A DNA stretch of 64,000 bases from positions 1 through 64,000 of the forward strand of contig PMSI01000001.1 in assembly GCA_003168375.1 (NCBI GenBank), given 5' to 3'. Source of the DNA: Vulcanimicrobiota bacterium (GTDB lineage: Bacteria > Vulcanimicrobiota > Vulcanimicrobiia > Vulcanimicrobiales > Vulcanimicrobiaceae). Made by a program: the position numbers and the translations under genes. Under the pieces are notes generated by a model. That model saw only the letters and a program-made list of their open reading frames with translations, made no database searches and was not told where the DNA came from. Shown here one piece after another: positions 1 to 64,000 of the stretch; the first letter of the stretch is position 1, and the number at the start of each line of letters is the position of its first letter.

Positions 1-1
1 C

Positions 2-343
2 AGTTTTACTCCGGCGCTAACATCGATTGCCCAATTCGACCGCTTCGTAGCGTCTGGTCTGCGCGGCGAGCTGGAGGCGCTCTTACGGATCCTCGTCATG
101 GTCCACACACAGCGCGATCCCAAAGCCTTAATTGTCGCCAGTACATCGGCGAATCCGCGCGTCGGACTCCTGATCCTCGAAGACCAGCGGCGCCAATTCC
201 GAATCTGCGCAAACTTTAGTACGCAGCGGGAGATAGTCATCCCCTTCAATGCCGGCAGAATTCTCAAGGCAAAGCGGCTACAGGATGACCGCTTAGGACC
301 GCTAGGATACATGATTGACGTACCGAAAGATGGTTCGGTATGA
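2..343 (+). CDS. C-terminal part of an unrecognised protein (cut by left edge)
   Basis: The frame is open from base 2 to a TGA at 343, so this is the 3' end of a gene that begins before the window; the internal ATG at 98 is probably not its start. I do not recognise the family. The last ~70 residues alternate short hydrophobic strands with turns and could be a beta-sandwich C-domain such as those closing many glycoside hydrolases, but this is only an impression. The stop overlaps the next start by four bases (ATGA), so it is translationally coupled to the ROK kinase, which favours a role in sugar metabolism. Base composition is less GC-rich than the window core. Confidence 0.5.
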   Translation, partial: SFTPALTSIAQFDRFVASGLRGELEALLRILVMVHTQRDPKALIVASTSANPRVGLLILEDQRRQFRICANFSTQREIVIPFNAGRILKAKRLQDDRLGPLGYMIDVPKDGSV

Positions 344-1356
344 GCGGGAGATTGCCGCCCAGCAAAGAGCCCCGATCGGCGCCTCGATCAGCTTCCAACA
401 TTGAGGGGTCCTTGGTCTATGCGCTCGATATCGGAGGTTCTTCCGTAAAGAGCTGCCTAGTCCATGTGAAGGGCGATCAGGTTGCAATTCTGGAACGCTA
501 TGGAAGCGCCAGGCTGCCGTCGAGACAGTTCTCCGACGTAGAGCAAATCGTAGTGCAGGCCGTTGGCCAGGTGCTAAGCGCCACGCCGACGCTATCGGCT
601 GTAGGTATTAGCACAACAGGATCCGTGGACAGTTCTGGGATCGTCGTAAGCGCCGGCCATTTTCAAGGCTACGTTAACGTCTCTTGGAACAAATTGTTAC
701 GGCGAGACTTTCCTCGCCTTGAACGAGTGGTCGCAGTGAATGATGGACGCGCTTCGACCTGGGCCGAATACTGTGCGAACATCAGTAAGATCTCATCGCA
801 CATTCACGCTGTCGTGGGCACTGGCGTGGGTGGCGGCATCGTATATAAGGGTGACCTAATGCAGGGCGACAGCGGTCAGGCGGGCTATATAGGGCACATC
901 AAGATAACCCTTGATCAAACCGCACTTTGCAGTTGCGGGAAAATGGGGTGCGTAGAAACGTTAGCTTCGGGTCCGGCAATTGTACGGCACTTCAACGCTG
1001 ACCCGAGCGGTCCAAATGATGATTATGCAACTGCGTTCGACACTGTCTGCGAGCTTGCCCGAAAGGGCGACATGACAGCACGCGCAGCCTTTAGCCGCGC
1101 AGGTTATTTCTTGGGCATGGGACTCGGCAACGCGATGAACGTTCTCAATCCGTCTCAGGTTACGGTCGGAGGCGGCGTCATTCTGGCGTCCGAAAGCATC
1201 GACACCTTGGGAGATGGAGGCCCTTACTTGCGATCCGTCGCCGATGGAATTCAGGCCGCGGCGCACAAACGCGTTGCCGCAGCGGCTACGCTGCGGCAAT
1301 CGGTCCATGGGAATGACGGCGGAATGGTCGGTGCTGCACTCTTAGCGGCTCAGTGA
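340..1356 (+). CDS. ROK family sugar kinase (glucokinase-like)
   Basis: The 338-residue protein has the ROK fold signatures. The ATP-binding motif DIGGSS is at residues 30-35. A catalytic-Asp motif VNDGRAS is near 133-139 (Asp135). The glycine-rich GTGVGGG follows at 160-166, and GYIGH supplies a zinc-ligand His near 186. The zinc cluster CSCGKMGCVE is at 197-206. There is no N-terminal winged helix, so this is the kinase rather than the repressor type, and it probably phosphorylates a hexose or amino-sugar in the cytosol; the substrate cannot be read from sequence. The start overlaps the previous stop by four bases, so the two are co-translated. The first ~25 residues are poorly conserved and the true start could be a little downstream. 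Confidence 0.88.
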   Translation: MSGRLPPSKEPRSAPRSASNIEGSLVYALDIGGSSVKSCLVHVKGDQVAILERYGSARLPSRQFSDVEQIVVQAVGQVLSATPTLSAVGISTTGSVDSSGIVVSAGHFQGYVNVSWNKLLRRDFPRLERVVAVNDGRASTWAEYCANISKISSHIHAVVGTGVGGGIVYKGDLMQGDSGQAGYIGHIKITLDQTALCSCGKMGCVETLASGPAIVRHFNADPSGPNDDYATAFDTVCELARKGDMTARAAFSRAGYFLGMGLGNAMNVLNPSQVTVGGGVILASESIDTLGDGGPYLRSVADGIQAAAHKRVAAAATLRQSVHGNDGGMVGAALLAAQ

Positions 1357-1365
1357 CGACGCTTC

Positions 1366-2625
1366 TTACTCTGACGATAGCCTCCCGAGCCGATTGGCAG
1401 CGACGCCAATCCAGAGACCCAAGAAAATGAAGCCAAGGATACGAGCAACTGGCAACAGAAGGTCGCGGCCCGTCGTGACCTGAGGACTAGTTCCGATACC
1501 GAAAAGACTTGCCCCGACGATTAGAAACTCATCACGGATAAGTTTCAAGTCCGGCGGCCAGACGAATAGATGCTTATCAATCAGGAGAATCACCAGGGCG
1601 ATCAATAGCATAGCCGAACCTGCGACGAGCGATAGCCTCGTGAGGCTTGTACCGAAGGCGGAGCTAGCACCCCAGATCCGTAGCCACGTATTTCTAATCG
1701 CACCACCCGGCTGCGCGTGCATTTCTGCCAGATACTGTGCGTCAGCGATCTCACGGCGAAGTAATGGCGACAGTCCTCGGAGATCTTGAATGGGCTGCCG
1801 CAGCAGATAAGGGCTCGGCTGATACTTTCCCAGCAGCGATGTAGTCCCGCACTGCCTGGGCCAATCACACTCGACCACGACGACATCCAGCATCACTGAG
1901 TGCGGTAGGTCGAAATCTCGAAGTGAAACATTCCTCAAAGTACTGCCAGTAAGATCCAGCTGCATGACTTGAGACTCGTGCAACCGCATTTCGTGTATGT
2001 CACACGACTTAAAGGTGGCTGAAGACAGCTGTCCCTGTGCGATGCAAAGGGAGGATATGTTGCTCTTCTCGAATCGCGTTTCATGCACATTTGAAGATGT
2101 GAGGTGCACACTTGTGAACGCAGCGGCACTGAACTTACAATGAGAGACGGTTAGATTTTTCGCGGAGATATTGGTGGCTACACAAGATGATACGATGCAG
2201 CGCGTCAGGGACGCCGAATCAATTTGCGTGCCCTCGAGAGTGCATCCTGACAGCTCGGAATTGTCGACCGTGACCGATCGAAGGTCGGCCCGACTCAGGT
2301 TGACCCTATTTAGGCGCGCCTCGCGAAAGACGGCATGCTGAAAATTGCTCCCTGACGCGTCAATCTGCTGGAAACTACACGCAATCAGACTCGTTCTCTC
2401 GGCCGAGACGTCTCGCAGGCTGGAGCCCGAAAACCGACAATTGTCCAGATTGGCTGACTCCAAGTCCGCTCCATCCAGATCGCAGCGCTCGAATGACCGA
2501 CCCGACAGATCACGCCCGCGTAGATTGACCATCCGTAGGTCGATTCGGGAACGCGCCGTCGCTACGAAATTGGCCCAATCTTGCGGACTCGCACGAAGGG
2601 CGTTCAGAGCGTCTACGGACGCCAC
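1366..2625 (-). CDS. Pentapeptide-repeat protein with C-terminal ion-channel-like membrane region
   Basis: GTG start; 419 residues. Residues ~30-245 are an A(D/N)LxX-type pentapeptide repeat, with clear runs such as NLRGRDLSGRSFERCDLDGA, predicted to fold as a right-handed quadrilateral beta-helix. The C-terminal ~90 residues hold two hydrophobic helices (about 330-350 and 389-411). Between them is a short re-entrant-looking stretch ending in SLFGIGTSPQVTTGR, laid out like the TM1-pore-TM2 of two-TM potassium channels. The canonical TVGYG filter is not intact, so channel function is an inference. It lies 45 bp downstream of the YdjC gene on the same strand and is probably co-transcribed. Its role is unknown; pentapeptide proteins with membrane tails occur both in transport and as defence effectors. 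Confidence 0.75.
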   Translation of the reverse strand: MASVDALNALRASPQDWANFVATARSRIDLRMVNLRGRDLSGRSFERCDLDGADLESANLDNCRFSGSSLRDVSAERTSLIACSFQQIDASGSNFQHAVFREARLNRVNLSRADLRSVTVDNSELSGCTLEGTQIDSASLTRCIVSSCVATNISAKNLTVSHCKFSAAAFTSVHLTSSNVHETRFEKSNISSLCIAQGQLSSATFKSCDIHEMRLHESQVMQLDLTGSTLRNVSLRDFDLPHSVMLDVVVVECDWPRQCGTTSLLGKYQPSPYLLRQPIQDLRGLSPLLRREIADAQYLAEMHAQPGGAIRNTWLRIWGASSAFGTSLTRLSLVAGSAMLLIALVILLIDKHLFVWPPDLKLIRDEFLIVGASLFGIGTSPQVTTGRDLLLPVARILGFIFLGLWIGVAANRLGRLSSE

Positions 2626-2670
2626 GCCGGCACCAGATCATTCGAGAGTTCGAATAACGACATAAGGCTG

Positions 2671-3441
2671 TCAGAACGAGCCATAGGGTCGCGGCAAGTG
2701 GCCGGCAGACGTCGGCCAACCCTCGTTCGCGAGCTCCATGAGCCCACGGTGTTCGTCTTCTCGCGCAGAAGACAGCGAAGACACCGACTTGAGATATTCA
2801 TCGCAGTACCCCGGATGAACAACGACTTCTATTACGCTTTCCGATGGATGCTCTGCGATCTTGGCCTCTACCTGGCGCTTCAACTCCTGGGCTCCGAGTG
2901 ATCGGCCAGACCAATCTCGCACGATGGCAACGGAGCCCCGTATGCCCCTTGATCGCATGCGCACACCGATGGCGCCCGCGGCGCCGCGAACCGGCACGTT
3001 TAGCTCGGCCGCGAGCTTCACGTAGATCTCGAAAAGGTCTTCGCGACGGTGCATCCCGTGATGGCTGTCCAGATGATTTGGCAAGCCTCCAAGGAGCTCG
3101 ATTGCAACCTCGATCTGCCGTCTCCATTCGGCCTCGACTTCGCCCGGGTCGGGGAGCAGCTCGCTCTTTCTGGGGTCGCGGAAGCGCCCCGTAGCGGCCT
3201 CGACAAGGCTCGGGATCTCTGCCGCTGGCGACAATGGACTCCCGCCCGTAAGTTGCAGATGAACTCCCGCCCTGCCCCTGAGATCGGATACCCCCCAATC
3301 AACCATACGCGTGCGCGCTCCGAGGGCGGCCGTCATCAGGGACGTGCTTGTTATCGCGCCCGCGTCGAATAATTCGCGAATGGACTTACACACTCCATCG
3401 CTTAATCCAAAATCGTCGGCGTTTATAACGATCGAAGCCAT
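2671..3441 (-). CDS. YdjC/ChbG-family carbohydrate deacetylase
   Basis: The 256-residue protein begins MASIVINADDFGLSDGV, the ADDFG metal-binding signature of the YdjC (ChbG/HpnK) family. It also has HLDSHHGMH near residue 125, whose His and Asp residues complete the metal site, and a C-terminal VVVHPGY. Characterised members remove N-acetyl groups from chito-oligosaccharides or related glycans; the substrate here is unknown. It lies between a degenerate ROK gene upstream (137 bp gap) and the pentapeptide gene downstream, all on the minus strand, which suggests a small carbohydrate-related transcription unit. GGATGGA about 9 bases before the ATG could be the ribosome-binding site. Confidence 0.87.
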   Translation of the reverse strand: MASIVINADDFGLSDGVCKSIRELFDAGAITSTSLMTAALGARTRMVDWGVSDLRGRAGVHLQLTGGSPLSPAAEIPSLVEAATGRFRDPRKSELLPDPGEVEAEWRRQIEVAIELLGGLPNHLDSHHGMHRREDLFEIYVKLAAELNVPVRGAAGAIGVRMRSRGIRGSVAIVRDWSGRSLGAQELKRQVEAKIAEHPSESVIEVVVHPGYCDEYLKSVSSLSSAREDEHRGLMELANEGWPTSAGHLPRPYGSF

Positions 3442-3578
3442 CGCGCGATTCCATCCAATGGGCTGCCACGTTACTTAGGCCAAAGCGGGCTCGGCCACAG
3501 CGTTCCGGTTCTTCGAGATGTCGGGGACCCCTTCGCCCCCGCAACGTCATTCGTCTAGAAGCACCGATGGTGTGCAAT

Positions 3579-4826
3579 TCAGGGAGATTGAACCGTACGC
3601 CACAGCTCAACCGCCCCATAAAACTGAGCGTCACGGCCAAGTTTGGAAATCGAAATGTCGGTCTGATTCCACGCCAGTGGCCACGAAAGCTGACGGGCAT
3701 ACCTTACAACGCGATCAGGAAATCCCGGTAGCTCCGTTATCATTCTCCCCCCCAAAACGATACGGTGCGGGTTCAGTATCGTGATCACCGAATTTATGGC
3801 GAAGCCGAGGTATCTAGCCGCAACCTCCAGCACGGCGTCAGCGACAGGATCTCCCTCTGCTATACCGTCGGCAATTCGATCGTAGGGAATCTCGGTCCAG
3901 TCGCGCTCCGAGGCAATCCTCAGAGCCTTCCGGAACTTCGATCCTTCTGATACCGCATAAGACGATCCCCGCTTGCCCTCTTCCGACTGGTATGTGGAGA
4001 CAAGACGCTCACTCACCCAAGGACGACTTGCGAACACCTCCAGCGCACCGCTAGACCGCAACGCCTTATAGTAGGCGCCGTCGGGTTGAACAATCAGGCG
4101 TCCCAAAATTCCGGCTACGCCAGCGCCGACGTAAGCCAATCCATTCATGATAATCTTTGCCCCAACCCCTTCGTCGGCGAATATATAAACCAGACATTGC
4201 GAACCGGTATTCTCACAATCGGGGGCGACGACGTATCTATTTTCGCCTATCGCAAGACACTCAACATCATGAAAAACGTGACACTTCTTTTTCAGACGCT
4301 CCTGCATCCATTTCGTTACGCCTACCGACTCACGAATGCCTAAACGGCTTGAACTCCTAATGGTGTCGATACCCTGCAGCGTGCCGGGTAAGGAAATAAC
4401 TATCCCGGCGGGCTCTCGGCCACGTTCTTTCCAGAACGCCAGCAGCCTCCGTTCAATCTCTTCAAGAAGGCGCTGTCCATTAGAGTCCGTCTGGTACGGG
4501 GCCGGATCCCACGTCTGATCAGCGCACCGTTTGATCTCGCCGGCGGAAGCAATTTCACACTCAATCAGAGTGGCTTCGCGAGCCTCAAGAAGAACGACTG
4601 TCACGAGCTGGCTCCCAGCAACTTGTACCTTACGCTTCATCAGCCAACCCCAGTTCTTGGGAACGGGCACGTCAGTGGCCTGCACGATTCTGATTGAGTA
4701 TGGGTGACCTGAACCGCGATGGTTGTGCGCGCTAATGCGCACGGGACTGGTTTCGGTAACCGAGGCGCGTCCACCCAGTCGCAGATTCCCGGCCAAAGCG
4801 TTCAAGCAGAAGGTCGCCGATTTCAC
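3579..4826 (-). CDS. Degenerate ROK-family protein without P-loop or zinc cluster
   Basis: The 415-residue product has a recognisable ROK C-terminal half: an HDVECLAIGE segment equivalent to the catalytic-Asp region, ADEGVGAKI for the glycine-rich loop, GFAINSVITILNPHRIVLGG, and a final GRDAQFYGAVEL. The N-terminal DIGGT phosphate loop is not seen. The GH zinc His is Arg (GILGRLIV), and the CxCGxxGCxE cluster is replaced by a stretch without cysteines. Kinase activity is therefore doubtful, and a sensor or regulatory role is plausible. The start is GTG, and an in-frame stop lies only six codons upstream, so no longer N-terminus exists in this frame. It probably heads the YdjC/pentapeptide unit. 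Confidence 0.7.
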   Translation of the reverse strand: MKSATFCLNALAGNLRLGGRASVTETSPVRISAHNHRGSGHPYSIRIVQATDVPVPKNWGWLMKRKVQVAGSQLVTVVLLEAREATLIECEIASAGEIKRCADQTWDPAPYQTDSNGQRLLEEIERRLLAFWKERGREPAGIVISLPGTLQGIDTIRSSSRLGIRESVGVTKWMQERLKKKCHVFHDVECLAIGENRYVVAPDCENTGSQCLVYIFADEGVGAKIIMNGLAYVGAGVAGILGRLIVQPDGAYYKALRSSGALEVFASRPWVSERLVSTYQSEEGKRGSSYAVSEGSKFRKALRIASERDWTEIPYDRIADGIAEGDPVADAVLEVAARYLGFAINSVITILNPHRIVLGGRMITELPGFPDRVVRYARQLSWPLAWNQTDISISKLGRDAQFYGAVELWRTVQSP

Positions 4827-4914
4827 GGACTGCTCGCTGGCTTACTTCCTAGGCGGCTGCCAGCCTAAAGCCCGCGGAGACTGCATCTTCGGTCGGGCGC
4901 GCGAACTGTTCGGC

Positions 4915-5205
4915 GTGTACTTGCAGGTTATCTATCTCGCAAACATATCATGCGGCCACTGCGGAAACGTCCTCGTCGACCGGTCAAGCCGACCCGTGAT
5001 CTCGCCCGTCTCGACGCCCAGCGGCGCGCCATACTCGTACGACGAGAACCGCCGTCCGAAGTCGCTTATCCTTGCCCTTCGTTGCGTGCGCTGCAGTGTG
5101 GAGACCGCGTTTGAGCGGAACGGCGCCAACACCGAAGTCAAACCACAGTCGAATCCTCCGACCGTCTACTCCGGATCGGTGTACGTGGTGCGTGAGGGAT
5201 TCTGA
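4915..5205 (+). CDS. Small CxxC (zinc-ribbon-like) hypothetical protein
   Basis: The frame is open from 4723 to a TGA at 5203-5205, but its first part overlaps the ROK-like gene on the other strand. I place the start at GTG 4915 (TTG 4921 is an alternative). The ~96-residue product has two cysteine pairs, CGHC and CVRC, about 38 residues apart, as in a zinc ribbon. Third codon positions are GC-rich across this stretch, as expected for real coding sequence. No ribosome-binding site decides the start. Function unknown. It fills the otherwise gene-free gap between two minus-strand units. Confidence 0.45.
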   Translation: MYLQVIYLANISCGHCGNVLVDRSSRPVISPVSTPSGAPYSYDENRRPKSLILALRCVRCSVETAFERNGANTEVKPQSNPPTVYSGSVYVVREGF

Positions 5206-5239
5206 GCCGTTGGCTCGGCTCCGGCTTTGACGATCACAT

Positions 5240-6472
5240 CTACGGTCCTGTGAGGACAATGTCCATTGGCTCGTTGGCAAACCGCGGATCCCCAGCGGCG
5301 CGGAGTTGCGTGAGGCGTCGCACGACGTCATCGACCAGCCGTAGGACGGCCTTCGTCTCGTTCACATTCTCGCGACCTTCTCTCCCGCGCAACACGGTTG
5401 TTCGCCGCTGAAACGCCCCGAGCAGACCATCGTGGACTTCGCGTTCCGACTTGCCGAGGTCTCTGGCGATGAGCCGTGCCGCAAGTAGTGACAGTCGGTG
5501 CGCCAGTTCATTTCGGGAGTCGTCGCCCAAAATTGATTCGAGCGCCGTCACAGCCTCCAGCAATGCGCTCTCGTCATCACGAGCGAGCTCAATGGTCGCC
5601 AGGCGTTCGCCGGCAAGGCGCACCCGGTTTTGTCGCGTATCTTGAAGACTCGCCCATGTAGATGTCATCGCTGGAATGTGCTCCGGCCCGATAAGCGTCT
5701 TCCTCAGGTCTTGTCGCGGGGAGTCCCCGAGTAGCCTCAGACGGCCCGCTCCCTCCGGATAGAAGCCGACGTTTTCAATCAGGGTGGGACCCGCCGTTGC
5801 GGTCGATCGCTGTGCGACGGCAATTGCAATCAACATTCGGTCGACCGCCGTTCGGCAGGCGCCAATCACATCTTGTATGTCGCCCGGCTCACCTTCGCGT
5901 AAAATTGGGAGCCGAAAATTGTGCACGAACTGCGCAGGGACCTCAGAATTATCGTCCCAGGCAACGCCATTCCAGCGAGGGTCCTCTCGCGGATTCACTT
6001 GCATCGGACCAATGTCGTTTTCACCATCGAGGGAAATGGGCTGCGAGCGGACGTTGTGCAGCGGCGTTATCGCGTGGTACGGAAGGCTGTCAGCCGTCAA
6101 GAACGCCTCGATCTCGCGGTAGACGACTGCGAAGAACTCCGAAGGCTCACCATAAAGGAGCACGCCTTTCCGCATGCGCCGATGTGCAGCCTCCAGAAAG
6201 GCATTGCCGATTGACCGCGACTTGTCAGTTGCGAAGATGCTGAACGCCGTACGTGTTTGACCGCAAATGCGCTCGCGCAGCACGACCTCCTGCGCGATTA
6301 CCGACTGAAGCTGGGTCCATTCGTAGATTTGGAATACTTCGACGCCGAATTCATAGCCCCACGCCTTGTCATCATCTTTGTAGCCCGCCTCGACAAACTT
6401 CCGCTGATACACCATCAACCTTGGCCAGACCACAGTGAGCCAGGCAAGTAGCAATCCCTTTAGCTCGTTCAC
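5240..6472 (-). CDS. HEPN-like protein C, catalytic His lost (third gene of HEPN cluster)
   Basis: The 410-residue protein resembles its upstream neighbour (6469-7863) in layout. A variable N-terminal ~270 residues is followed by an ApeA-like HEPN-type helical region that begins near ALESILGDDSRNELAHRLSL and continues through AFQRRTTVLRGRE. At the place where active HEPN RNases have R-x4-H-G, this protein has R357-TTVL-R362-G, so the catalytic His is Arg. It may be a non-catalytic partner. I chose GTG at 6472 because it overlaps the upstream stop as GTGA; a longer start at 6502 would overlap by 34 bases. Family membership rests on motif layout read by eye and is an inference. Confidence 0.72.
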   Translation of the reverse strand: MNELKGLLLAWLTVVWPRLMVYQRKFVEAGYKDDDKAWGYEFGVEVFQIYEWTQLQSVIAQEVVLRERICGQTRTAFSIFATDKSRSIGNAFLEAAHRRMRKGVLLYGEPSEFFAVVYREIEAFLTADSLPYHAITPLHNVRSQPISLDGENDIGPMQVNPREDPRWNGVAWDDNSEVPAQFVHNFRLPILREGEPGDIQDVIGACRTAVDRMLIAIAVAQRSTATAGPTLIENVGFYPEGAGRLRLLGDSPRQDLRKTLIGPEHIPAMTSTWASLQDTRQNRVRLAGERLATIELARDDESALLEAVTALESILGDDSRNELAHRLSLLAARLIARDLGKSEREVHDGLLGAFQRRTTVLRGREGRENVNETKAVLRLVDDVVRRLTQLRAAGDPRFANEPMDIVLTGP

Positions 6473-7863
6473 GGCACTAATCCGACCACTAAGGCGTCCC
6501 AATCCGGTTCCTGACGCTCGCCAAGGCGCTTCTGTAAAGCGCGTCGCACGATTTCTTCCACACGCGGCGTCAGCGCTTCAACGGTGAGCGGCTCTCCAAG
6601 AACTCTTACCGCGCGGGGTTCGCTACCATGTGCGATCGCGCTTCGCATGTCGTAAGCTGCGCCGACCGTCCTGTATACAATTCTTCTTTCTGCCAGTTCC
6701 GTTTCAAGGTAGAACGCGGCATGCAGGGAACAGCGAAACTTGAGTTCGGTGTGATCCCCGTCGGCCGGCAGGAACAGTGCTTCCGCAGCGATGACGATAT
6801 CTAGTATGCGATCCGCGTCTCGTCGCCGCTCCGCGGCATCCCGGAGGCGTCGAAGCGCGAGGCTTGCAGGGCCCTGTGCCTGAGTCGCGCGCAGTGCAGC
6901 CCAGTAGCGCACGAGGTCTGCGGCGCCCGCGTCGTTGAGCGTAACTTGCGGACGAGGACTCTGCGTGTCGTCTAGCCCGGGTGTCGATGTCGGGAGGTAG
7001 TTTACTGATTGTATTCCCCACGGCGAGCCAATGGTAGCCCATGTCATCGTCGCGCCCGTCTTGGCAAGTCCAGTCGATACGAGCGGAAGTAAGCTGAGAA
7101 GCCGCTCCGGGTCGTCGAATCCGTTCTGCTCGTGCGCGCCGGGATGTCGGCCCGCTAAAACGTCCTCTGGTGTCGGGATACGGTCAAGTACGAGTTTGGG
7201 AAGCGCGATAGTTCGGCGCAGTGCGAGGCGCCGGTACGGCTCGCGCTTATATCGGCGACGCTGCGCCATATCGCCGGCGATTGCGTTCATCTGCAACGCT
7301 TTGATCGCCTCATCGTCTGTGAGCACGTCGATTACGAGTCCCGGCTCGAGCTCGAGTGGAGTTGCAACCTCGAGATCCCAGATCGGCGTCACGTAGACGA
7401 CTTCGAATGTGGCGGCGCGAACAACGGTATGCAGTTGCCTTAACAGCTTTTCGATTCGCCCCGGTTCGCCGAACTGCATATCGGTCGGCCGTTCATAGTC
7501 CGTATCGACTGGGACGACCGATGCGGCGATCCGATCTGGCGATATTGGAAATAGGTGCGACGCTGAACCAACCGCCTTACCGAGAATCGGACCGAAGTCG
7601 GGCTCGGCTGCGAGGGCGGCAACCACACTGTGAAAAGGAGCCAAATGAAACGTGGCCTCAATCGCCCCTGGCGTGTAAACCGCTCGCTCGCGGCATACGC
7701 GTAGGAAAATTTCTGGACCCTCCTTGATAAAGAAGTCCTCGCAGATGCTGCGATGTGCCCCGCTCAGCTTCCAGGCTTGCGCCGAGCTGGAAACCCAGCC
7801 CCAAAGGGCATTCGCGACGTCACGATATGGGGTGTTTTCCGGTACTGGTGCAATGAATGGCAT
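6469..7863 (-). CDS. ApeA-like HEPN domain protein B (Rx4H motif)
   Basis: The 464-residue protein has a C-terminal ApeA-like HEPN domain of about 90 residues, running from RILDIVIAAEALFLP through LKFRCSLHAAFYL to YDMRSAIAHGSEPR. The last segment contains the HEPN catalytic motif R407-x4-H412. HEPN proteins with this motif are commonly metal-independent RNases, and ApeA itself is an anti-phage protein; activity here is inferred. The N-terminal ~330 residues are a mixed alpha/beta region I do not recognise, possibly a sensor. The ATG is 12 bp after the stop of protein A, and its own stop overlaps the start of protein C (GTGA), so the three genes form one operon. Confidence 0.82.
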   Translation of the reverse strand: MPFIAPVPENTPYRDVANALWGWVSSSAQAWKLSGAHRSICEDFFIKEGPEIFLRVCRERAVYTPGAIEATFHLAPFHSVVAALAAEPDFGPILGKAVGSASHLFPISPDRIAASVVPVDTDYERPTDMQFGEPGRIEKLLRQLHTVVRAATFEVVYVTPIWDLEVATPLELEPGLVIDVLTDDEAIKALQMNAIAGDMAQRRRYKREPYRRLALRRTIALPKLVLDRIPTPEDVLAGRHPGAHEQNGFDDPERLLSLLPLVSTGLAKTGATMTWATIGSPWGIQSVNYLPTSTPGLDDTQSPRPQVTLNDAGAADLVRYWAALRATQAQGPASLALRRLRDAAERRRDADRILDIVIAAEALFLPADGDHTELKFRCSLHAAFYLETELAERRIVYRTVGAAYDMRSAIAHGSEPRAVRVLGEPLTVEALTPRVEEIVRRALQKRLGERQEPDWDALVVGLVP

Positions 7864-7875
7864 TGGCGGCTTGAG

Positions 7876-9795
7876 CTAGTCTCCTTGCAGTATTCGCGCG
7901 GCGTTCCGAAAGTGACCGCTGATATGATCTACGCCTCGAGCAATAAGGTTCATTAACCGCAGGTAGTCCGCGCGTTGCCAATTCTTATCCGGAAGACCGA
8001 GATCCGCCGCGGCCCCTCGTGCCTTCGGCAGGTTTGGCTGATGTGCTAGTCCGCCAAACGTGCGGAGGTCATATAAGAAGGCCAGGGGTCCGAATTCCGA
8101 ACGCAGACGCCGGTACAGCGATTGGAGTTCGATCTGTAGGTCTCGGTCAGAAAGAGCCTTGTTGGCTTCGATTTCCCTGACGAGTCGCGCGAGGTCTCCG
8201 CATTGCAGGCCAAAATGCGCGATCACCGCCGCGACTAGCGTTACGCGCTGCAGCAAACGGCGCGAGCCCAGCGGGCGCGGCGGGGTCTCTTCATTCAAGT
8301 CAAGACTTCCACCAATTGTAACTGTGAGCTGGCGAAGTGGCGCTAGTTCCAGCGCGTCCAGAGCAAATGTCGAGGCGAGCGTAGCTCGCTTAAGGAACTC
8401 GTCTTCGCCGGCTGAGGATGCATAAAACCATTTGAGTTGCCGGCCGGCGAGACTGTCCAGGGAACCTTGCCACGGACCCTCGGAGCTCGGCGCGCCGAGA
8501 GACTTCGCTAACGAGCAGAAAGCCGTGTTCATGTTGCCGAGCGCGGAAGCAACAATATTTACTGCCTCTGGTATTGTCTGCTCAGATGAAAGGCTGGCTG
8601 CTGCATCGTCGCTCGGAGGCTCAACCGCGAATTGACGCCAGTACGGCCATTCGGTTAACGGAACGCCCTCGGCAAAGTCGCCGATAGCGGTCATTAGGAG
8701 TTCATTGCCCAGTCGCGAAGTGCTCCGCGTGAGGCCCCAGTAGTCTCGGCATGAGACGGAACCGTCGTCACCTACAGCAAAACCGTCGGCCCCTTCATAC
8801 TTTCTAAGGACGTCTTGGCGAAAGTAGATGCGCTCCATGAAGTCACACGCTTCGGCTGGAAAGCGCTCGCGATCGAGGTCGATGTCATACGTCCACCGGG
8901 CCGGTGCGACAGTTCCGAGCCGCGTCGGAAACGAGAATTCATACACGTCGAACGTCGGCTTATGGCCCGCGGGGTCATCGATATCTAAATGAGGTGGGTT
9001 TATTCGAAACCATAGATGAAGCCGTCGCTGCAAATACTCCTCCGCACCCGGAAGACCGATTTGTGCCGACGCGCTTTGAAGCAACGCTTTTGCGCCCTGT
9101 TCTGGCGACCCAAAGACGAGCTCTCCCGTTACGAATGCGGCAACGGCCTCTGATGTTGGATTGAAGTAGTGAAGGTGCCGGTAATGGCCGACTACCAATG
9201 AAAGCTGCCGTACCCGAAGGTATTTGAGAAGGTAATCGACTCGAATCTCGATGACCGCTACGTTGCCGTTGCTAACTTCGACTCGCCGCAGAGCTTCTAT
9301 TCCGGATAGCGCATCCCACCAAATGCCGCAACCCGGGGAGCGTTCCTCTAACCCTAAGAAAAGCCAAAGATCTGGATTGACAAGGAGAGTTGGCCCTCCC
9401 GCCGTGCCACGGCAGAACGCAAGTGGTTCGCAGGTAACCGACGTGAAGGGAATCTCGAAACGATAGAACGGATCGTAGGAATAATTCCTGCTGCTACCGT
9501 CGTCCACAATTGTATACCCAGAGGTTCCAAGTTCGCCGATCACGTTGCCGATGGAGTGCAGATCGTCGAATATCGCGGCGAACTGCTCCGATTCGAGCAA
9601 GAAGCTTTGTCGCTCGATGAAGCCTTCGACGTCCATGTTGCGTTCGCGGGATGTCGTCCGTGCAGCGAGCCAAAACCACGGACCGAGCATCGGCTGCGCC
9701 AATAGATCGCTAGACAGGTCTAGCTCTGCAATGCTGAATAGTTGCCTTGGGACATCTTCTAGGTCGAAAATTGGATTCATTGAATCGCTCACCAC
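7876..9795 (-). CDS. Large protein A with C-terminal Rx6H HEPN-like motif (first gene of HEPN cluster)
   Basis: The 639-residue protein has no family that I recognise for its first ~500 residues. The C-terminal ~130 residues look all-helical and contain LYDLRTFGGLAHQPN near 574-588. That gives R578-x6-H585, the spacing of the HEPN RNase motif, in the context expected at the start of the last HEPN helices. The first of three tightly spaced minus-strand genes, it ends 12 bp before protein B. Start choice is ambiguous among GTG 9795, GTG 9792 and ATG 9780; AGGTG lies just upstream of the GTGs. Composition is less GC-rich than the A2M gene next door. Function is inferred only from the motif and neighbours. 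Confidence 0.75.
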   Translation of the reverse strand: MVSDSMNPIFDLEDVPRQLFSIAELDLSSDLLAQPMLGPWFWLAARTTSRERNMDVEGFIERQSFLLESEQFAAIFDDLHSIGNVIGELGTSGYTIVDDGSSRNYSYDPFYRFEIPFTSVTCEPLAFCRGTAGGPTLLVNPDLWLFLGLEERSPGCGIWWDALSGIEALRRVEVSNGNVAVIEIRVDYLLKYLRVRQLSLVVGHYRHLHYFNPTSEAVAAFVTGELVFGSPEQGAKALLQSASAQIGLPGAEEYLQRRLHLWFRINPPHLDIDDPAGHKPTFDVYEFSFPTRLGTVAPARWTYDIDLDRERFPAEACDFMERIYFRQDVLRKYEGADGFAVGDDGSVSCRDYWGLTRSTSRLGNELLMTAIGDFAEGVPLTEWPYWRQFAVEPPSDDAAASLSSEQTIPEAVNIVASALGNMNTAFCSLAKSLGAPSSEGPWQGSLDSLAGRQLKWFYASSAGEDEFLKRATLASTFALDALELAPLRQLTVTIGGSLDLNEETPPRPLGSRRLLQRVTLVAAVIAHFGLQCGDLARLVREIEANKALSDRDLQIELQSLYRRLRSEFGPLAFLYDLRTFGGLAHQPNLPKARGAAADLGLPDKNWQRADYLRLMNLIARGVDHISGHFRNAARILQGD

Positions 9796-9876
9796 ACCTT
9801 CGACGCTCCCGCCTACGACGCTATCCGCATAAGTTTCTCTCGCAGAGTGCAGAGAAAGCGCAGTTCGCCGGCGAGA

Positions 9877-56193: not shown

Positions 56194-57051
56194 CTAAGCG
56201 CGCTGCGTAGACTCGGCGAGTCCAGCAAAATCCTCCGACAGCGCCGCGAGCGAAGCGAGGATCAGATCCGCCTCTTCGCCTCGTCCGAGTATTTCTCTCA
56301 AAAGGACGAGCCCCGGTCCTCCGCTACCGCAGAGGTCTTTCAAAAATCGAGCACCGCGCCGCGCGACCTCCTTGAGATCATTGCTCTTGCATCGCTCTCG
56401 CAGGACCGTCTCCATCGCCTCGAAATCGGCAGCGCGCAACAGAAGATACACGTCTGCGATGTCCTTCCGTACTTCATGAAAGGCTTCAGCGCCCAGCTCA
56501 TAGCGCTCGCCAATCTTCCAGCCCTTTGCGACAAGTAGCGCGAGAATACTAGCAACTTCAACAACTATCGACTCTTCGCTGTCGTCGACCCCGATATGGC
56601 CAAGACGCATGGGCGAGTGATCGACAAGGCAAAGTTCGAGGCCCCGCTGAGACTGCGTCGCAAGATAGTCGCGTCTTTGAAAACCTTCCGCCTGCCACAG
56701 GTGCTCCATCGATTGCGGTACGAGGATGTCGATTTTTGTCGCTTCGCGCTCGTCTTCTGATGCATCTCCGCGCCAGTAAAATCCGCCGTATTCATTCCGA
56801 AAGACGAAGCCAGCTCGCTCGAGATGGTCAGAGATGACGTGCGCGATACGAATCCTTACGGGGTCTGCGGCAAGATCACCGTCGAGAGTGAACGGCGCGA
56901 TCGAAGCGATGACTTCGGGCGCTCTCAAATGGACGGCATGCGCACCTACTAATACGAAACTTCCCTCGGGCAGAGTGGCGAGCGACCGCAGCGCATAGAT
57001 CAGCGTACGACGGGCGATTGCGTAACCTTTAGCGTCGCCAAGTAGACTCAT
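56194..57051 (-). CDS. Nucleotidyltransferase-like protein, putative toxin/effector of an AbiE-like pair
   Basis: In this 285-residue protein the N-terminal part resembles AbiEii-type nucleotidyltransferases: LVGAHAVHLRAPEV followed by FTLDGDLAAD, whose Asp57 and Asp59 would be the metal ligands. Later segments KIDILVPQSM and VVEVASILALLVAKGWKIGE fit the same layout with a helical C-domain. AbiEii proteins are the toxic half of type IV toxin-antitoxin/abortive-infection systems. The start overlaps the end of the upstream winged-helix gene by 23 bases, so it is co-translated. It is less GC-rich than its neighbours. Family placement is an inference from motifs. Confidence 0.7.
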   Translation of the reverse strand: MSLLGDAKGYAIARRTLIYALRSLATLPEGSFVLVGAHAVHLRAPEVIASIAPFTLDGDLAADPVRIRIAHVISDHLERAGFVFRNEYGGFYWRGDASEDEREATKIDILVPQSMEHLWQAEGFQRRDYLATQSQRGLELCLVDHSPMRLGHIGVDDSEESIVVEVASILALLVAKGWKIGERYELGAEAFHEVRKDIADVYLLLRAADFEAMETVLRERCKSNDLKEVARRGARFLKDLCGSGGPGLVLLREILGRGEEADLILASLAALSEDFAGLAESTQRA

Positions 57052-58147
57052 TGCGTTTCATCCAGTTGATTAGCGCCGAGTACTCGTCAGAAGACCGCGT
57101 AGGCAACGTTAGAAGGTCCGCAGCGATCTGGCTTGGCGACGCTAGGACGACGTTCGTGTCGAGGGCCATCGTACGCTCGAATACGACGTGATCGAACGCC
57201 TCGATGAGGCGGACGTTACCGACACGCTCTGACCGTCGAAGAGAAAGAGCTGATCGAGCTTCTTCAATGTCGTTAACGTAAATGTCGACTGCCATCGGCG
57301 CGGCTGCCGGAGCGAGCGCTTCGCTCGCGAACGCCCCAGTAATTGCGTAGGGTTGATTCCAGGCCGGAAGACGACCGATGAACGCGCCGAGGTCACGCGG
57401 CTCGAGAAATGACTCGGTTCGCCGGTCCTTCTGCAGGGCTTGCGACCATAATTTGATGAGCGATTCCCAATCGACGGAGAACACGGAACCTTGTCGGCTG
57501 CGCTCCAAAACGCAATCTCGTTCCAGCAAGCCGAGAATACGCGATACGTTGCCGGGATGGACACTCGTTTCTGCGGCGATTTGACGCACCTTGAGTGGCG
57601 ACCGCGTATCGCAAAGGTACCGTATAACGCGGCCCGTAATCGGACCGCGAAGTGAGGTCCGCGATCCTCGCTGGACGTTGTCCTTGGGAAGCTTGCCCTG
57701 CCCGATGCGATCAACCAGAAGGGTGTCGGCGGAGAGCCATACGCTTCCCGTCGGGTCCAGATACGAAATATTGTGCTCCCGGAGAAGCTGCCGCGAGCGC
57801 GCACTAAAGTGTGGCGCTACGACAAGAAGATTTTCGCCGGCAGCGAGGGTTCTATTCAAACGTTCGAAGGCGCCGACGTCGCGCGGCTCGACGTCCTCCT
57901 TCATTTCGACCGCGAAGCGGACCAGGGGACCCTTCGGGGGCTGGACGTCCAGGATTGCGTCGAACTTCGCTCGCCGCTCCATTCTCTGGGCACGGAACGA
58001 CCAACCGTCGGGCAGGAGGTCCCCAAGGATTGCGGACAAGGTGTTGCTCAGATCAACCCTGTTGCCCGAATCGAGCAACGCAACCTTTTCGGACAACGAG
58101 TGCCGCGCTGGCAACGTAATGTTGCTCGTCTTGGTCATGTTGCTCAT
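57029..58147 (-). CDS. Winged-helix AbiEi-like regulator/antitoxin with nuclease-like N-terminus
   Basis: The first ~150 of 372 residues read like a PD-(D/E)xK fold (KFDAILDV with Asp63, then VRFAVEMKED with Glu81-x-Lys83, then NLLVVAPHFSARSRQLLREH). A winged helix occupies about 168-222 (PLKVRQIAAETSVHPGNVSR, then ILGLLERDCVLERSRQG). The C-terminal half ends SDEYSALINWMKR. AbiEi antitoxins repress their own operon through a winged helix; the nuclease-like domain is not part of classical AbiEi as I know it. ATG 58147 coincides with the predicted transcription start, so translation may be leaderless. ATG 58159 would lie inside the -10 box and is unlikely. Confidence 0.75.
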   Translation of the reverse strand: MSNMTKTSNITLPARHSLSEKVALLDSGNRVDLSNTLSAILGDLLPDGWSFRAQRMERRAKFDAILDVQPPKGPLVRFAVEMKEDVEPRDVGAFERLNRTLAAGENLLVVAPHFSARSRQLLREHNISYLDPTGSVWLSADTLLVDRIGQGKLPKDNVQRGSRTSLRGPITGRVIRYLCDTRSPLKVRQIAAETSVHPGNVSRILGLLERDCVLERSRQGSVFSVDWESLIKLWSQALQKDRRTESFLEPRDLGAFIGRLPAWNQPYAITGAFASEALAPAAAPMAVDIYVNDIEEARSALSLRRSERVGNVRLIEAFDHVVFERTMALDTNVVLASPSQIAADLLTLPTRSSDEYSALINWMKRNESTWRR

Positions 58148-58159
58148 AACAGGCAACAT
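58111..58159. promoter_or_regulatory. Operator-like ATGTTGC/GCAACAT repeats over promoter and gene start
   Basis: ATGTTGCTC occurs at 58119-58127 and 58137-58145, and the inverse GCAACAT at 58153-58159 covers the -10 box. GCAAC/GTTGC at 58111-58125 forms a further small palindrome. Repeats positioned like this fit autorepression by the winged-helix product, an inference by analogy with AbiEi. Confidence 0.55.
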
Positions 58160-58183
58160 ACCCTGTCTGAACAACACTGTCAA
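58155..58183 (-). promoter_or_regulatory. Near-consensus sigma-70 promoter of the AbiE-like pair
   Basis: On the minus strand TTGACA (58183-58178), a 17-base spacer and TATGTT (58160-58155) form a near-perfect housekeeping promoter. The expected start of transcription is about base 58148, one base before the ATG at 58147, so the mRNA should have essentially no leader. Confidence 0.82.
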
Positions 58184-58244
58184 TACGTGACTACCTGCCG
58201 GCAATGGCACGCCAGCAATGGTCAACGGTACGGGTAAGCGCCGC

Positions 58245-62794: not shown

Positions 62795-63337
62795 TTAGCG
62801 CTTCGCGCGCGCAAAGAGTTCCGCGACGTCAAGCGCAAACCCCGGCAGCGCCGTATGCGTCAGGATTTCCCCCGCACTGAAGACGCGAGTACCATCGGCG
62901 TCGTGCATCGCGACCGTTTCGGTGCGAGGATCGACGACGATCACGACGGCCGTCCCCGCGGCGAGATAGGTGGCGATCTTATCGGCGACGTCCGCGCGAC
63001 GGTCGCCGCGCGACAGCACCTCGACGGCGGCCGTCGGCGCTCCGAGCGGAGTCTCGACGTCGTCTTCGCACGCGTCTCGGGCGAGCGCATCGTACGAGAG
63101 ATATCCGACGTCGGGAACGAGCGGACGGATGATCCGGTCGGGCGGCGCGATGCGGAAGCGCCACTCGACGGCGACTCGTCCGTGCGCCCCGCCGTCGGCC
63201 CAAGTCCGGAACGCCATGTAGAGTAAGCCTTGTACCGAGCCATGGCGGAACTTCGGGCTCATCTTTTGGAGCGCCCGACCGCGAACCCATTCGGTCTCCG
63301 GCTTCGTCTCGGGGAGCACGATCTCGTGGAGCGACAT
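62795..63337 (-). CDS. Uma2-family (DUF820) putative restriction-endonuclease-fold protein
   Basis: The 180-residue protein has the Uma2 layout: KMSPKFRHGSVQGLLYMAFR, VPDVGYLSYDA (Pro-Asp catalytic position), PTAAVEVLSRGDRRADVADK (Glu-Val-Leu-Ser with downstream Lys), YLAAGTAVVIVVDPRTETV and a C-terminal ALPGFALDVAELFA. Family members have a PD-(D/E)xK-like fold and unknown roles, often in multicopy families. I use ATG 63337, which begins MSLHEIVLPETKPETEWV, typical for the family; the longer frame adds an unsupported 13 residues. Confidence 0.88.
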   Translation of the reverse strand: MSLHEIVLPETKPETEWVRGRALQKMSPKFRHGSVQGLLYMAFRTWADGGAHGRVAVEWRFRIAPPDRIIRPLVPDVGYLSYDALARDACEDDVETPLGAPTAAVEVLSRGDRRADVADKIATYLAAGTAVVIVVDPRTETVAMHDADGTRVFSAGEILTHTALPGFALDVAELFARAKR

Positions 63338-63419
63338 CTCACGCAAGCGTATCACGCCCGCCCCTCCCCTTGGCAATACCGAAGTTACTGACAGTCAGCG
63401 ATAGCTATCCACTCCACTC

Positions 63420-64000
63420 CTAGAACGGCCGCAAGATCCTCTCAAACATCGATTGCGCGGGCACTTCATTCCCTCCGTGAACCGCGACTGAGACGGCAAC
63501 CATCTCCGCCGATGGGACCATGCCCCATGCGAGACCCATGTCACGCAGCGCTAGAACGTGACTCAGAAACAAACGTTGGACTCTTCCGTTTCCTTCACGA
63601 AATGGATGTAGTGCATTGAGCTCACCAAAGAGGTATGCCAACCGGGCCGGAAGGTCCGTGACTGCTGCATCGACGAGCATCTTCCGGTCGTGCAGTTCGC
63701 GAAGGATTCTGTCCGCCTCGCTGTCTAGAAAGCGCGGCTTTGCGAACTCACTGCCACTCTTATTGATCGGGACGTCACGAAAATCGCCCGCCCACGGGTA
63801 AACATCTTGGAATAGATGACGGTGAATGAAACGTAAATGTCCTCGATCGAAGGTACGTCGAAACACCAGTCGAGCGAGCTGCGACTCACGCAACGCCGCA
63901 TGTTGAGCTTCTCGGATACGCAGCTCATCCGCGTTTGTTATGCCGAGGTCGTTCTTAAGACAGTCCGTGCCCTCAATGAGGTACGGGTCGTGTACTACGT
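63420..64000 (-). CDS. Fic-domain protein (start beyond the right edge)
   Basis: The frame is open to the end of the window, so the gene is cut at its 5' end. The visible product begins DPYLIEGTDCLKNDLGITNA, the usual N-terminal segment of stand-alone Fic proteins. It contains FRRTFDRGHLRFIHRHLFQD, VYPWAGDFRDVPINKSGSEF and the complete catalytic motif HPFREGNGR. Fic enzymes AMPylate or otherwise modify target proteins and often act as toxins held by an antitoxin with an inhibitory helix. No such helix is seen in this part, so an antitoxin could lie outside the window. Composition is less GC-rich than the lar genes. Confidence 0.93.
   Translation of the reverse strand, partial: VVHDPYLIEGTDCLKNDLGITNADELRIREAQHAALRESQLARLVFRRTFDRGHLRFIHRHLFQDVYPWAGDFRDVPINKSGSEFAKPRFLDSEADRILRELHDRKMLVDAAVTDLPARLAYLFGELNALHPFREGNGRVQRLFLSHVLALRDMGLAWGMVPSAEMVAVSVAVHGGNEVPAQSMFERILRPF

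Follow-up and report, generated by a model that had tools for sequence, protein, structure and literature searches.

Near the start of the 64,000-nucleotide stretch of Vulcanimicrobiota DNA analysed here (the window) lie three adjacent minus-strand genes, here denoted P1, P2 and P3. P1 (7876..9795) encodes 639 amino acids, or 634 when read from the ATG at 9780; this ATG, at codon 6, is more likely the true start because the closest relative of P1 starts there. The stop codon of P1 is followed after 12 bp by P2 (6469..7863), which encodes 464 amino acids including an intact ApeA-like HEPN domain at about residues 305-450. P3 encodes a protein with a degenerate HEPN domain at its C-terminus and can be read either from a GTG (5240..6472, 410 amino acids) or from a TTG (5240-6502, 420 amino acids). 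The TGA of P2 and the GTG of P3 share the tetranucleotide GTGA (6469..6472, minus strand), an overlap that suggests translational coupling of the two genes. The open reading frames thus bear out the original prediction of three adjacent genes of 639, 464 and 410 codons joined by a short gap and a GTGA overlap. None of the three products was recognised as HEPN or matched by any entry of Pfam, NCBIfam or PADLOC, and searches for them in phage records found nothing.

The three genes have a GC content of 0.56-0.60 and a GC3 of 0.60-0.66, compared with a GC3 of 0.91 in the adjoining alpha-2-macroglobulin gene, so that the region is, as predicted, less GC-rich than its flank. They belong to a low-GC segment (1..9800, GC 0.55-0.61) that ends 3' of the alpha-2-macroglobulin gene; the window begins at the first base of the contig, and the far border of the segment lies outside the visible DNA. 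Nearly all members of the genus carry the alpha-2-macroglobulin gene, and the three-gene DNA was not found in 20 relatives, ten of the same genus included. In five relatives with long flanks, the DNA after this gene holds none of the window genes from 340 to 9795, and the same flank of a close relative, whose alpha-2-macroglobulin gene is 95% identical, also lacks them. Within the genus, this is thus a variable site. Foreign composition and a variable site together indicate that the locus was acquired horizontally. The neighbours within the segment, at 340-4826, encode two different ROK-family kinases, a YdjC deacetylase and a pentapeptide-repeat protein. The trio had been proposed to be a transferred defence module; transfer and the variable site support that proposal, but the accessory genes flanking the trio on the far side are of the sugar-metabolism type and not defence genes.

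P2 carries the motif MRSAIAHG, in which R407 and H412 form an Rx4H (R407-S-A-I-A-H412, 6628..6645, minus strand). R407, S408 and H412 are invariant across seven aligned sequences (P2 and its relatives), which upholds the assignment of the middle protein as ApeA-like and places P2 among proteins with the conserved Rx4-6H of the HEPN superfamily. One relative, from a member of the same taxonomic family (G053), shares 31% identity with P2 across residues 168-461; for the remaining relatives the alignment covers the C-terminal domain. The P2-family HEPN profile weakly matched the HEPN part of the solved structure 9hxn (E 0.021), titled 'Bacterial antiviral defense protein Ec1Ap' by the search tool, and phrog_28161, a family without assigned function, matched P2 around the motif (5e-6). 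ApeA is a single-gene HEPN anti-phage protein, and P2 likewise ends in a HEPN domain with RSxxxHG. Unlike ApeA, P2 is coupled to a pseudo-HEPN gene, matches none of the PADLOC defence models and falls below Pfam HEPN_Apea (PF18739), and we therefore name it ApeA-like rather than ApeA. With its normal-looking motif, P2 is probably a HEPN RNase. Elsewhere in the phylum, five members with large genomes (~8 Mb; L008-L012, L044-L046) each encode one conserved HEPN protein of 440-465 amino acids, with AARSALVHGYG in those read.

P3 is homologous to this HEPN domain. Residues 270-398 aligned to the P2-family HEPN profile with an hhalign probability of 95.7 (E 1e-8), and the P3 C-terminus still matched a profile built without P2 (probability 94.7, E 6e-8). 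Against the profile that includes P2, P3 scored 61, whereas 100 shuffles of P3 reached at most 23. The catalytic segment reads FQRRTTVLRG in P3 and YDMRSAIAHG in P2: the arginine is kept (R367 counted from the TTG, R357 from the GTG), the serine is replaced by threonine and the histidine by arginine, leaving R-T-T-V-L-R (5387..5404, minus strand) in place of an intact Rx4-6H. The mutated motif predicted for the third protein is thus confirmed (RRTTVLRG versus MRSAIAHG), and the HEPN core is otherwise retained, including the helix 2 glutamate. Since the motif histidine is replaced by arginine, the P3 domain is predicted to be inactive; HEPN domains without the motif may serve in RNA binding or in regulation (PMC3710099). 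An RNELAH in P3 (330-335, TTG numbering) was considered as a catalytic Rx4H and rejected as the canonical site because it aligns with NELSHR of the relatives, upstream of the motif. An N-terminal domain common to P2 and P3 found no support (score 19; the highest of 60 shuffles reached 21). The N-terminal half of P3 has no recognisable relative, and searches of 149 genomes of the phylum, 398 Pseudomonadota (about 550 genomes in all), plasmids and phages turned up no relative of full length.

P1 contains D576-L-R578-TFGGLA-H585, confirming the Rx6H that had been placed near residues 578-585 (R578 to H585, 8041..8064, minus strand); the residue after R578 is T, not the usual N, D or H. We found 16 relatives of P1, mostly on prophages and plasmids. 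Across a 16-member alignment of the family, D576 and R578 are invariant (16/16) and every member has a histidine at x4 or x6, so that P1 shows the conserved Rx4-6H of the superfamily, and D, R and H persist down to ~20% identity. Intact relatives read D-[LM]-R-x4-H, three prophage copies having RNA[DE]AH; the x6 spacer occurs only in P1 and its closest relative, a full-length, ~50% identical protein from a gammaproteobacterial MAG that keeps RTHGGLAH. Despite this relative in another phylum, searches of 148 further genomes of its own phylum did not find P1. Remote relatives lie on plasmids of Rhizobium, Novosphingobium, Sphingomonas, Paraburkholderia and Burkholderia (broken), the last being a Burkholderia glumae plasmid (L064:4400-6300), and in a genome where relaxase and integrase genes lie alongside (E 1e-7 for the profile match); nine more are in viral contigs. 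The family is not in Pfam, NCBIfam or PADLOC, and PHROGs gave one weak match only. Comparison of the P1 and P2 HEPN profiles gave no significant match, the alignment covering the motif only (E 0.04). By sequence, the P1 family is separate from the HEPN kind common to P2 and P3, and it is not previously named. The locus shares with the HEPN superfamily (Anantharaman et al. 2013, PMC3710099) an Rx4-6H with a spacer of 4 or 6 at a helix end, and inserts between helices 2 and 3. The locus differs from that description in that the P1 family is missing from the three databases and P3 lacks the histidine.

An AF2 model of P1 was built from 11 sequences (mean pLDDT 64); a first fold from two sequences (pLDDT 35) was discarded. 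The N-terminal half of the model is beta-rich and of low confidence, and the C-terminal domain is all-helical from about residue 370, with pLDDT mostly 70-90. R578 closes the helix 551-579 and H585 lies in the loop before 589, in agreement with the helix-end position of HEPN motifs (PMC3710099); we infer from the model which P1 helix would correspond to HEPN helix 3. Comparison of the model with the PDB returned no HEPN structure among the matches. Rhodopsins and She2p, which the helical domain matched at Z ~5, were judged uninformative, and HIV reverse transcriptase, matched by the C-terminal profile at E 0.004, was put down to chance because a larger alignment did not repeat the match. For P1, structure prediction gave an all-helical C-terminal domain but no HEPN hit. 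The claim that all three products end in a HEPN-type domain is sustained to different degrees: clearly in P2, by degenerate but homologous sequence in P3, and by motif and helix position in P1.

The N-terminal half of P1 gave a different lead. Avs3, a STAND ATPase of phage defence, senses the terminase of the phage. P1 residues 21-270 resemble its C-terminal part, residues 1854-2077 (8dgc), with Z 8.9 and rmsd 4.1 over 164 residues; this was the top match, the second-best beta-rich row having Z 3.2. Since this half of the model is of low confidence and the Foldseek E value for Avs3 is 0.04, we take an Avs3-like sensor domain in P1 as a lead only. P1 differs from Avs3 in having neither a STAND ATPase nor a TPR array (neither P1 nor its relatives gave any Pfam or PADLOC match), and a HEPN-type domain takes the place of the effector.

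The surroundings of the P1 relatives are typical of anti-phage cargo. The Rhizobium relative adjoins TIR-APAZ and short pAgo genes (PADLOC E 1.6e-138 and 5.8e-95), and that of the gammaproteobacterial MAG adjoins DarT, an ADP-ribosylglycohydrolase and a UvrD helicase. In prophages L071 and L075 the gene is antiparallel, lying between the tail terminator and further structural genes; in L065 and L066 its neighbour is a DNA methylase gene, with endolysin and baseplate genes close by; and in L070 it is near the integrase. Clustering with known defence genes, proposed as a check on the trio, is seen for P1 relatives beside TIR-APAZ/short pAgo and DarT but not among the trio's own neighbours. At the 16 other P1-family loci, no adjoining gene resembles P2 or P3, and a second HEPN gene in the vicinity was seen at one of them only, in Novosphingobium, at a distance of 3.8 kb from the P1 relative. 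This plasmid gene (L003:492-1403) encodes a 303-amino-acid protein with an intact HEPN motif, NQRSRAAHG.

The proposal that the three genes work as one three-HEPN system was not supported: the trio was found in no other genome searched, and we reject a conserved three-gene system as a general claim. Because P1 relatives stand alone, P3 has no full-length relatives and the trio is single, we regard the locus as probably a local stack of defence genes and not a recurrent three-HEPN system, the stack consisting of a standalone HEPN effector and a coupled active/pseudo-HEPN pair. Our main reading, to which we give a probability of roughly 0.6, sees the locus as a set of anti-phage HEPN RNase genes stacked together and gained by horizontal transfer, with P1 as sensor-effector and P2 acting with P3 as its pseudo-HEPN partner. 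The beta-rich N-terminal half of P1 would sense infection or hold the enzyme off, and its C-terminal domain would be a HEPN-type RNase, making P1 a self-contained sensor-effector of a family spread by prophages and plasmids. P2 would be a separate ApeA-like HEPN RNase co-produced with P3; the latter is most likely the pairing partner and regulator of P2, dimerisation of the two being presumed here. Upon infection, HEPN dimers would cut RNA, tRNA being a common target, growth would stop and phage spread would be blocked. RNase activity, the trigger and phage protection are what we infer for the locus from its genes and their relatives.

Several other explanations were considered. P1, P2 and P3 may form one integrated hetero-oligomer of two active HEPN domains and one dead, as their common strand, 12-bp gap, 4-bp overlap, similar foreign composition and HEPN-type C-termini would allow; given the 16 loci at which P1 relatives occur by themselves, the lack of a full-length P3 relative and of a second trio in the genomes searched, we consider this quite improbable. 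That P3 is decaying towards loss, with P1 and P2 the only genes of consequence, would explain the missing catalytic histidine, the lack of full-length relatives and an N-terminal half unlike any recognisable protein. Against decay, 410 codons have stayed open with a composition like that of the neighbouring genes, the start overlaps the P2 stop tightly and the rest of the HEPN core, helix 2 glutamate included, is kept, which leaves this explanation unlikely.

Two further alternatives concern function and fold. HEPN domains are known in toxin-antitoxin pairs and metabolic regulators (PMC3710099), and with sugar kinases and a YdjC deacetylase as neighbours the proteins might be toxins or regulators with a stress or metabolic role instead of phage defence. 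That P1 relatives are concentrated in prophages, on plasmids and next to known systems of defence argues against such a role, as does the fact that no small antitoxin or MNT partner was seen, and we hold it to be rather improbable. It is also doubtful that P1 is not HEPN at all and that its conserved D-R-H motif is part of another helical fold: three prophage members carry the classic R-N-A-[DE]-A-H, the position of the motif relative to the helices fits HEPN and the three residues are retained at ~20% identity, even if the model retrieves no HEPN structure, its best helical matches are rhodopsins and She2p (Z ~5) and no significant profile match links P1 to the P2 HEPN.

The reading of the locus as a stack of HEPN RNase genes is in line with what is described for type IX retrons, whose HEPN RNases act as dimers and cut tRNA (PMC13405049). 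In Kva2, the HEPN effector is an RNase dimer held inactive by its partners until infection (PMC13405049); the locus differs in having no reverse transcriptase or msDNA. A bolder version, which we consider possible but unlikely, is that P1 represents a new single-gene family joining an Avs3-type recognition domain to a HEPN RNase, and P2-P3 a new active/pseudo-HEPN heterodimer system, the two united here in one operon. If our main reading is right, the P1 family would be a prophage- and plasmid-borne HEPN effector, possibly with an Avs3-type fold, missed by the defence catalogue searched, and P2-P3 would show that in nature a HEPN RNase can be under the control of an inactivated version of its own domain.

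Elsewhere in the GC-rich chromosome, the window holds another low-GC gene pair at 56194-58225 (minus strand; GC 0.57-0.58, GC3 0.59-0.67), encoding a 398-amino-acid protein with weak helix-turn-helix matches and, overlapping it, a 285-amino-acid protein without a Pfam match; this is perhaps a further mobile pair. At 62795-63893 (minus strand), a Uma2 putative nuclease gene (PF05685) adjoins a low-GC Fic gene (PF02661).
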